Assembly (NCBI RefSeq): GCF_000469585.1
Contig: NZ_AWNK01000007.1
Coordinates: forward strand, 280,110 to 341,325
Direction: 5' to 3'
Origin: Chrysiogenes arsenatis DSM 11915
GTDB lineage: Bacteria; Chrysiogenota; Chrysiogenetes; Chrysiogenales; Chrysiogenaceae
DNA: 61,216 nt
How positions within the stretch are numbered: position 1 is the first letter of the stretch; the number at the start of each line of letters is the position of its first letter. The notes under the pieces are model-generated. The model was not told the DNA's origin, did no database searches, and worked only from the letters and a program-made list of their open reading frames with translations. Below are positions 37,821-61,211 of this stretch, piece after piece. The position numbers and the translations under genes are program-made.

Positions 37821-37857
37821 AAATGGAGTAAGATCATCATCTTACTCCATTTTTTTA
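37821..37857 (+). terminator. Intrinsic terminator in the gap after the D0-like gene
   Basis: AAATGGAGTAAGAT (37821-37834) pairs with ATCTTACTCCATTT (37839-37852) around CATC, followed by a T run. The gap from 37661 to 37965 holds this terminator and the promoter that follows; the first 150 bases show nothing else I can name. Confidence 0.9.
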
Positions 37858-58911: not shown

Positions 58912-58940
58912 ACGGGTAGCTTTTTGCTACCCGTTTCTTT
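58912..58940 (+). terminator. Intrinsic terminator after the chemoreceptor
   Basis: ACGGGTAGC (58912-58920), loop TTTTT, GCTACCCGT (58926-58934), then TTCTTT. Confidence 0.9.
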
Positions 58941-58950
58941 AGCTTTTATG

Positions 58951-58987
58951 ATATTTGTAATGAAATAGATTATTTCATTACAAATAT
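58951..58987. promoter_or_regulatory. Perfect 17-bp inverted repeat with 3-bp spacer upstream of the recombinase gene
   Basis: ATATTTGTAATGAAATA (58951-58967), GAT, TATTTCATTACAAATAT (58971-58987). The right arm ends one base before the ribosome site GGAG and 9 bases before the recombinase ATG. It is too AT-rich and lacks a T run, so it is not a usual terminator. It could be an operator for autoregulation, a recombinase core site or an RNA hairpin that hides the ribosome site. The dyad is seen directly; the role is open. Confidence 0.85.
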
Positions 58988-58996
58988 GGAGTAACC

Positions 58997-59884
58997 ATGT
59001 CGCACGTCACGATCGTAAAAAATTTCACCAATTATTTACGTTTTGAAAAAGGGTGCTCGTCACCAACAATCGAAAAATACCAGTTCGAATTGCGGAAGTA
59101 CTTCACGTATCTGGATTCAGAAAAACTGGCATATAGTTCCGTTTCACATATTGATTTAAGATCGTATATGTACGCTCGAGCAGGGAACTTAAAAAAGCCG
59201 ACTTATGCGACTATTTTGGCAATTTTGAAATCATTCTATTCTTTTTTGCATACAGAACAAATAATGGAGAAAAACCCGACCGAAAAGTTATTATTTCCCA
59301 AGCAGTCAAGAAGAGATCACTTGCCACACTGTCTTGATGTATCGGAACAAAGTACCTTGCGCGAAATGCTGGTGCAGACCAAAAGAAACTTCACCAATGA
59401 CCGGAATCGAGCGATAATCGCCATGTTCATATATACAGGGATACGAACGTCTGAGCTTTGTACGTTGACGAGAATGCACTATTCGCAAACAACTTCTTCC
59501 ATTACGATTACTCGTAAAGGAGGCAAGCAACAGGTAATTCCGCTGCCCAAAACCCTTGTTACAATACTTGAGCAGTTTTGGCTGCCCTGGATGGCAAAAA
59601 TATCATCAGAATGGTTTTTTTCGCAAAAAGGTGGCAAGCCGATGAACCCTCGTATTATTTGGCATCTCGTTTCAAAAGAACTGAAAGCGCTACAATGCAA
59701 TGAACAACGCAAGTGCGGGGCGCACGTATTGCGCCATACGTTCGCAACAAATCTTGTTCGAAAAAGAGCGCAATTGATTGAAATTCAGCACCTACTTGGA
59801 CATTCAGATGTAAAGATGACACAAATCTATACGCATGTTTCTCCGGAATCTTTGCGTGATACAATTCAATTGCTTGACGAATAG
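58997..59884 (+). CDS. Tyrosine recombinase (XerC/XerD-like integrase)
   Basis: Encodes 295 residues. N-terminal SAM-like DNA-binding domain (FTNYLRFEKGCSSPTIEKY) and a catalytic domain with Arg in YTGIRTSEL, Lys in RKGGKQQ, His/Arg in HVLRHTFAT, His in LLGHSDVKM and nucleophile Tyr in QIYTHVSP. Size and layout fit Xer proteins, which resolve chromosome dimers, or small integrases. No phage or cassette genes are beside it. It follows a perfect inverted repeat and precedes the glutathione synthetase by only seven bases. Confidence 0.93.
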   Translation: MSHVTIVKNFTNYLRFEKGCSSPTIEKYQFELRKYFTYLDSEKLAYSSVSHIDLRSYMYARAGNLKKPTYATILAILKSFYSFLHTEQIMEKNPTEKLLFPKQSRRDHLPHCLDVSEQSTLREMLVQTKRNFTNDRNRAIIAMFIYTGIRTSELCTLTRMHYSQTTSSITITRKGGKQQVIPLPKTLVTILEQFWLPWMAKISSEWFFSQKGGKPMNPRIIWHLVSKELKALQCNEQRKCGAHVLRHTFATNLVRKRAQLIEIQHLLGHSDVKMTQIYTHVSPESLRDTIQLLDE

Positions 59885-59891
59885 GAGTACT

Positions 59892-61211
59892 ATGATGACT
59901 CACTCAGACCATGCACCATTGGTTGATATGGCAATAACCTACGGATTACTCAAGTATGATACGCACGACCAACTTTCCCACATGCCAATCGTGCTTGATC
60001 CATATTTAGTTTCTCAATTGAACATAGATACAATGAAAAACAGCTCGCAAATTTACGCCGATTTGCTTATGACATTGCCTCAGGCATTCCTTGAGAAATA
60101 TCTTGAGCCACTTTTACTGAACGATCCTTTCATTAATGTGCTGTTGCGTATCTTGCGCAGCTCCCCCGAGAATGCACAGCCTTATCGACAAGCAATTGGG
60201 AGAAATGATTTTTTTATTGCATCATCTGGCACTCCGAAGCAGGTAGAATTCAATACGGTCTCGGTAAGCTTTCCCATGATGTCTGAATGCATGGTAAATT
60301 TTCATACATTTCTCGAGTCAACGAAAGCGATATCGCGTCTTCCTCTTGAAAATCCTATTGCAAAAGAAATTACACAGTGCTTTCTCGATATGTTTCAGTA
60401 TTATGCTTTTCCGAATAGCGTCTTGCTTATGGTTGTTCAGCCCAATGAGAGAAATATTTTTGATCAGCTTGCTATCGAAAAATTACTTTTTAGGCAAGCG
60501 GGAATACGTGCGGTGCGGGCGACCCTTGAAGATATCGGCAGGTATGGCATTCTTCGTCATGGACATATGTATTATAATAACTTCCATGTAGGCGTAGCAT
60601 ATTTTCGTGCTGGATATGCGCCGGAAGATTATCAGAGTGAAGAGGCTATTCAGGGGAGAATTCTTCTAGAGAATTCTGATGCTATTAAAATTCCTGACAT
60701 GCAATATCAACTCGCTGGCATGAAAGTGATTCAGGCCGTATTGACCGACGAGTCCATATTGCAATCACACTTGAGCTGTAATCAAAGTCGAGAATATCTT
60801 GCCGCCACTTCAGTGTACACTCGCCCCCTTGACAACAAGGATGCCTATGAAAAAGTTTTTCGGCACCCTGATAATTTTGTTGTAAAACCACAGCGTGAAG
60901 GTGGGGGAAATAATTTTTTTGGTACTGCTATTTCGTCTTTACTGAATGATCCATCAATAGATTTTTCAACGTACGTGGCAATGGAGCGAATACATCCTGA
61001 GTTGCATAATGCACAATTAGTTATAAACAATAAAGTACAGCCTCCCGTGCCTTGCGCCAGTGAAATTGGTTGGTATACACTGACGCATGCCATGCATGGA
61101 GCAATCAACACAGATATCGCTGGTTACTTAGTTCGCACAAAACCAGCAACAGAAAATGAGGGTGGCGTTTGTGCAGGATATGCAGCACTGAACTCATTGA
61201 CGTTGAAATAA
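59892..61211 (+). CDS. Eukaryotic-type glutathione synthetase
   Basis: Encodes 439 residues (438 if the second ATG at 59895, better spaced from AGGAG, is used). It matches the eukaryotic GSS fold, not bacterial GshB: VEFNTVSVSF, YFRAGYAPEDY, IKIPDMQYQLAGMKV, the ATP-binding Gly-rich loop VVKPQREGGGNN, and the closing GYLVRTKPATENEGGVCAGY all stand in the order seen in the animal and plant enzymes. It joins glycine to gamma-glutamylcysteine. No gshA is in the window. It is probably co-transcribed with the recombinase gene. Confidence 0.9.
   Translation: MMTHSDHAPLVDMAITYGLLKYDTHDQLSHMPIVLDPYLVSQLNIDTMKNSSQIYADLLMTLPQAFLEKYLEPLLLNDPFINVLLRILRSSPENAQPYRQAIGRNDFFIASSGTPKQVEFNTVSVSFPMMSECMVNFHTFLESTKAISRLPLENPIAKEITQCFLDMFQYYAFPNSVLLMVVQPNERNIFDQLAIEKLLFRQAGIRAVRATLEDIGRYGILRHGHMYYNNFHVGVAYFRAGYAPEDYQSEEAIQGRILLENSDAIKIPDMQYQLAGMKVIQAVLTDESILQSHLSCNQSREYLAATSVYTRPLDNKDAYEKVFRHPDNFVVKPQREGGGNNFFGTAISSLLNDPSIDFSTYVAMERIHPELHNAQLVINNKVQPPVPCASEIGWYTLTHAMHGAINTDIAGYLVRTKPATENEGGVCAGYAALNSLTLK

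Follow-up and report, generated by a model that had tools for sequence, protein, structure and literature searches.

A perfectly symmetric site beside a single tyrosine recombinase gene as a probable dif equivalent in Chrysiogenes arsenatis and its relatives

In well-studied bacteria, it is the FtsK pump that unites the dif sites at the septum and activates the recombinases. XerC and XerD belong to the same superfamily as recombinase A, the enzyme described here, and are of similar length, with E. coli XerD (1a0p) being its closest solved structure in a single-sequence search; however, recombinase A scores well below their cut-offs, falls into a clade of its own, and comes from a family in which the canonical dif and the FtsK motor and gamma domains are missing. 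Four other known systems work with a single recombinase. In XerS/difSL of streptococci and lactococci, the site lies beside the gene as a module at the terminus (PMC5357621, PMC2731167), but XerS has 356 amino acids and is reported to require FtsK, and the difSL arms are unequal around an 11-bp centre (PMC5357621), whereas here a 295-aa enzyme is found next to a site of perfect symmetry in a family without the FtsK motor. In XerH/difH of Helicobacter, Campylobacter and relatives, the site is mostly near the gene and carries an inner TGAAA...TTTCA motif (PMC2731167); XerH is, however, longer than recombinase A (353-363 aa, PMC2731167) and reported to be FtsK-dependent (PMC5357621), and the difH consensus core gave no match in 400 kb of the Desulfurispirillum indicum genome, contig C5 of C. 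arsenatis and contig C1 of the third family genome. Linkage of site and gene is a published trait of both the XerS and the XerH modules (PMC5357621, PMC2731167). XerL/dif of the Legionellales, which we compared by its description, has a site that is intergenic, low in G+C and close to the skew peak, its 10-bp arms being perfectly symmetric, but the gene neighbourhood of the Legionella dif varies (PMC9765430), whereas the site here is tied to the recombinase gene. Archaeal XerA/dif is reported to be FtsK-free (PMC5357621), but the host here is a bacterium. As judged from sequence, the best reading of our locus would be an Xer/dif module that resolves chromosome dimers with a single recombinase and resembles XerS/difSL in its build but lacks the FtsK translocase, and we give a probability of about 0.82 to its symmetric site, dyad A, being the dif-equivalent chromosome-dimer-resolution site of the adjoining recombinase A.

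The window is a stretch of 61,216 nucleotides (C5:280110-341325) of the C. arsenatis genome (G000), a draft assembly of 2,825,161 bases in 22 contigs. We have compared it with the complete genome of D. indicum (G002, 2,928,377 bp) and with a draft genome from a third genus of the same family (G001); these three form the family sample and, together with 47 others, the phylum sample. The features of the locus are collected in Table 1. Dyad A is preceded by a chemotaxis-receptor gene, and in each of the three genomes recombinase A is immediately followed by a eukaryotic-type glutathione synthase gene (Pfam PF03917/PF03199); the window copy reaches 272.8 bits, below the NCBIfam glut_syn_euk cut-off of 329.8.

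Table 1. Features of the recombinase A locus and related genes (window positions unless a locus is named).
Feature	Position	Strand	Remarks
Terminator-like hairpin of the upstream chemotaxis-receptor gene	58912..58934	+	Separate from dyad A
Promoter-like match TTGCTA-17-TATGAT	58924..58952	+	Consensus scan; weak; +1 would fall inside dyad A
Dyad A	58951..58987	.	Proposed dif-equivalent recombination site; perfect 17-3-17 dyad
Conserved 35-bp form of dyad A	58952-58986		In 3/3 family genomes; pairwise identity 33-34/35
Inner core AATGAAAT-N5-ATTTCATT	58959..58979	.	Common to paralogous site B
Central triplet GAT	58968..58970	.	Sole variable part of site A (GAT/CAC/TAT)
Recombinase A	58997..59884	+	295-aa XerC/D-like tyrosine recombinase; Pfam PF00589 (Phage_integrase) and PF02899 (SAM-like N-domain)
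Glutathione synthase genes	window 59892-61211; L066:6119-7468; L068:9021-10397		
Reduced ftsK	L285:2198-3010 (G000:C3); L280:1282-2052 (G001); L281:1291-2037 (G002)		FtsK_4TM only

The first-pass annotation had described an AT-rich 17-bp inverted repeat with a 3-bp centre, and this is exact: two arms of 17 nt (58951-58967 and 58971-58987) are perfectly complementary around GAT, and the G+C content of the dyad is 13.5%. It was also right that 9 nt separate the dyad from the ATG at 58997 and that, in the window genome, the dyad touches the ribosome site. At gaps of up to 12 nt, no other perfect dyad of the window is as long as dyad A. The largest arm reached 13 in 150 shuffles of the whole window and 12 in 2,000 shuffles of the surrounding 1 kb, 17 never being attained in either set; dyad A is far beyond chance. 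The runner-up, with 14-bp arms, is at 37821-37852 between two genes; it is followed by a T run and is probably a terminator.

A search for the half-site, as proposed in the first pass, returned besides the two copies in dyad A one match with 3 mismatches in the window, and across the C. arsenatis genome only one other place stays below 3 mismatches, a lone half-site at C6:78109 that has 2. Just before this lone match (L009:1290-1500, G000:C6), a short motif around TCATCTCGAAC is repeated several times, and by eye it looks like a dispersed intergenic repeat.

Site A precedes the orthologous recombinase gene in all three family genomes; absence of the dyad from close relatives, which the first pass had raised as a point against the site, was looked for, and the dyad is present in both. 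It reads TATTTGTAATGAAATA-NNN-TATTTCATTACAAATA in each genome, with the centres GAT, CAC and TAT, and is identical between genera at 33-34 of 35 positions, each flank being identical at 13-21 of 60. Identical arms around a species-variable centre, which must match between sisters, are as a recombination site predicts, and a published analysis has described such a pattern at the centre of dif (PMC2731167). The central triplet would be placed within the crossover region. The distance between dyad and start codon is widely variable, being 9, 52 and 124 bp for A. These observations also bear on the suggestion of an RNA switch, in which the leader of the recombinase mRNA would fold the dyad into a hairpin that controls translation. 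Such a hairpin would fold at -18 kcal/mol (z -3.9), none of 200 shuffles being as stable, and the contact with the ribosome site in the window genome would suit it; however, the letters of the arms are kept across three genera with no compensatory change, the start codon is anywhere from 9 to 124 bp away, and Rfam gave no match over its gathering score, making this reading extremely improbable.

Across the three family genomes, the exact core AATGAAAT-N5-ATTTCATT is present five times, each time just upstream of an A/B recombinase gene, and gene and site are linked in one module for five of five such genes. At 2 or 3 mismatches, the core is found throughout the genomes near the expected level (control counts 10, 10 and 3 against 26, 16 and 18). 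Site A itself is single in each genome, but C. arsenatis and D. indicum also have a further site that shares its inner core. It belongs to module B, a paralogous recombinase with its own dyad, 10-12 kb from A in these two genomes, while G001 has recombinase A and site A and no B. The B dyads differ from A in outer arms and centres, that of C. arsenatis having a one-base irregularity in an outer arm, and lie 46 and 28 bp from the start codon, counted from the end of the perfect arm; we have set the B start in D. indicum at an internal ATG because the longest reading frame would run through the dyad. Module B is probably a second, separately specific Xer/dif pair. The genes between A and B are quite different in the two genomes (ftsZ by Pfam, with ftsA, ftsQ, ddl and others by eye, in C. 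arsenatis; an ABC-transporter gene by Pfam, ftsE by eye, and others in D. indicum), so that the modules remain close to each other despite the different genes in between. It had also been suggested that the recombinase gene controls itself by recombination. We have rejected inversion or excision as a means of such control, there being no second compatible site near the promoter: the exact core is present only twice in C. arsenatis, and the second copy, B, is 10 kb off and differs in its outer arms and centre.

Searching 59 genomes with recombinase A gave as best matches its own paralog B (46% identity, 10 kb away), a single ortholog in G001 (55%), and an ortholog (55%) and the B paralog (43%) in D. 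indicum; the remaining full-length relatives among the matches listed were at 26-33%. In a search of genome contigs, one distant relative was found, in Tenacibaculum (30%). A profile made from four of the five A/B proteins gave E values below 1e-100 for these five only in the 50 phylum genomes, with four further genomes at 1e-46 to 1e-48; the proteins of three of these four were placed on a tree and fell outside the A/B clade. In this tree, which kept 29 of 31 relative loci (L034 and L149 were dropped by the ORF filter, and the rows include two identical pairs), A and B group together in a single clade on a long branch with support of 100/100, split into A (98/95) and B (98/90), and the position of the clade within XerC/D is unsupported (85/72).

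The five A/B proteins also stay below the NCBIfam cut-offs for XerC (163-204 bits against 335), XerD (153-190 against 330), XerS (82-97 against 267; recombinase A 87) and archaeal XerA (142-166 against 220; recombinase A 158). By these curated cut-offs, they would class as none of the four. PF00589 has 15 matches in the three genomes, five of which are the A/B proteins; two with an internal stop (G000:C8 and G002:1583156) were left out of the scan, and none of the 13 recombinases scanned, the five A/B and eight others, exceeded the XerC or XerD cut-off. The eight others were all below the XerC, XerD, XerS and XerA cut-offs, with two integron integrases and one IS91-type transposase fusion over the cut-off among them. 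Recombinase A, a tyrosine recombinase of XerC/D size, very likely represents a separate lineage.

Another reading takes the module for the integrase of an old mobile element, together with its attachment site, after the element had settled at the terminus. Some mobile elements do use dif-like sites near the terminus (PMC9765430), and module B is missing from one of the three genomes; however, module A is present in all three, and its neighbours have core functions instead of being phage genes (glutathione synthase, and ftsZ in C. arsenatis; hyp genes in D. indicum and G001). Plasmid and phage records held only relatives below 60% identity, the best among the matches listed being at about 30-32%. 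The 24-base arm pattern was found in no viral contig, and the 16-base core pattern in at least 120 stretches of viral contigs, which we have taken as the chance level for so short a palindrome. We therefore regard a mobile origin as very improbable.

Dyad A has the general traits of dif in being intergenic, low in G+C and palindromic, and a check for a dif-like site at the GC-skew switch, as advised by the first pass, was positive. In D. indicum, with dnaA at 86-1468, site A is at 1,438,519, which is 49.1% of the circle, and the cumulative GC-skew peak of the 1.25-1.65 Mb segment is at 1,439,266, 747 bp away. The distance to the peak is 5,480 bp on the G001 contig and 2,856 bp in C. arsenatis, where the peak is 20 kb from the contig end. 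With uniform placement in the segment, the chances of such small distances in the three genomes are 0.4%, 1.6% and 2.9%. For comparison, the median distance between dif and the skew peak was 7,277 bp in 161 proteobacterial chromosomes (PMC2731167). The skew of D. indicum was derived from a 400-kb segment and 19 sampled stretches, which were mostly positive before and negative after the site; those at 0.90 and 2.45 Mb run against the trend, and the origin stretch is slightly negative. Just left of site A in D. indicum, the G-rich strand is the plus strand but the genes are on the minus strand, so that the skew switch is not explained by gene direction. Site B is farther from the peak, at 11.6 kb in D. 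indicum and about 7 kb in C. arsenatis.

The canonical dif of the phylum was found in 41 of the 47 other phylum genomes (the exceptions being G021, G035, G040, G043, G045 and G049) and, allowing up to 2 mismatches, in none of the three family genomes. The same is seen with the FtsK gamma domain (PF09397), which is present in 42 of the 47 and in none of the three; the five others, G037, G039, G043, G045 and G048, are all at most 92% complete. The FtsK motor (PF01580) was likewise found in 0/3 family genomes, with 10 of 14 control genomes positive. The full FtsK of G018 matches that of G014 end to end, but in the three family genomes its match extends over no more than residues 17-182 and falls in open frames of 262-272 aa; the family ftsK product is FtsK_4TM alone (256 aa in G001, 248 in D. 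indicum and 270 in C. arsenatis). In the family, this reduced gene follows the RNase J gene (identified by eye in C. arsenatis), with a BacA/UppP gene between them in C. arsenatis, and the order in G018 is RNase J, BacA/UppP and full-length ftsK. From this shared order, the family ftsK looks to have been cut down in place.

A further first-pass idea was an operator, by which recombinase A or another regulator would repress the gene at dyad A, recombination taking place elsewhere or not at all. All five dyads are upstream of a recombinase gene, and in the window genome transcription from the promoter-like match would begin within the dyad; however, one such match in the stretch upstream of recombinase A compares with 0.8 expected by chance. 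Furthermore, the spacing to the start codon varies widely across A and B, the site coincides with the skew switch in each of the three genomes, whose gene orders differ, and the canonical-dif and difH core searches produced no other dif candidate. A role as operator only is decidedly improbable. What stands of the idea is a secondary effect: autorepression via binding at the transcription start is possible in the window genome, and less likely to be general since the placement is variable.

Taken together, the symmetry and conservation of the dyad, the linkage of core and gene, the position at the terminus and the absence of the canonical dif and of the FtsK motor and gamma domains lead to the reading as a single-recombinase Xer/dif module. 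That the dyad might be the enzyme's own recombination site, also put forward in the first pass, appears strongly supported by position, linkage and conservation. In this reading, a homodimer of recombinase A would occupy the two symmetric arms, the two copies of the site on a dimeric chromosome would come together in synapsis, and strands exchanged across the short variable centre would convert the dimer to monomers at the replication terminus. Binding and cleavage, the resolution of dimers and independence from FtsK translocation are all what we infer for the module. The site would serve this one recombinase, the family having very probably lost the two-enzyme system, its usual site and the FtsK pump. 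Without an FtsK motor or gamma domain, something else must time and direct the reaction, as is reported for archaeal XerA, which acts without FtsK (PMC5357621).

The presence of two paralogs raises the alternative that A and B stand in jointly for XerC and XerD, working as a mixed pair at one of the sites or at both. The inner half-site AATGAAAT is common to both sites and the paralogs have been kept close at the terminus although the intervening genes differ; but each dyad is nearly symmetric in itself, the outer arms differ between A and B, and A should suffice in G001, which has it without B. A mixed pair is therefore improbable. For the single-recombinase module, either A or B may act as dif in C. 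arsenatis and D. indicum, both being at the same terminus. We lean towards the wider view that the XerC/XerD-dif-FtsK machine has been wholly replaced by a self-contained, symmetric gene-and-site module without the FtsK translocase, ftsK having been cut to its membrane domain, with a second, separately specific module at the terminus in two genera.

A terminus Xer site without the FtsK motor and gamma domain would make the timing and directionality of dimer resolution without a pump testable. No built-in first-strand order is expected of a symmetric site, and the enzymes may therefore be regulated differently. The module, of 295 aa and 35 bp, could serve as a simple, self-sufficient recombination tool, and in the reduced ftsK the membrane role would have been separated in nature from the DNA-pumping role.

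In the literature, Chrysiogen- is absent from the main text of Kono 2011 and of the 2017 review, and the genome papers of C. arsenatis DSM 11915 (PMC3828317) and D. indicum S5 (PMC3368425) mention neither recombinases nor FtsK. In open-access full text, Chrysiogen- is nowhere found together with 'dif site', nor Desulfurispirillum with FtsK; Chrysiogen- occurs with FtsK only in PMC6668835, an article on type IV filaments, and with xerC only in PMC10500605 and PMC6054849, which deal with integrons. Among the matches listed in a broader open-access search, Chrysiogen- and Desulfurispirillum were absent.

FtsK-guiding polar octamers were also tried and rejected: GGGNAGGG, which we take to be such an octamer, has leading/lagging counts of 38/21 in D. 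indicum, 24/9 in G001 and 8/10 in C. arsenatis, which is inconsistent, and the other most polar k-mers among the matches listed are G/T-rich, as the general skew would give. Some of the other recombinases of the family have features of their own. In L003:703-2070 (G000:C11), a tyrosine recombinase and an IS91-type transposase (126.8 bits, cut-off 125) share a single open frame, and in L004 the two are separate neighbouring frames. In D. indicum, an integron integrase near the origin (L069:10673-12623) reaches 797.5 bits against a cut-off of 435 and adjoins an AadA-type adenylyltransferase gene (Pfam AadA_C).
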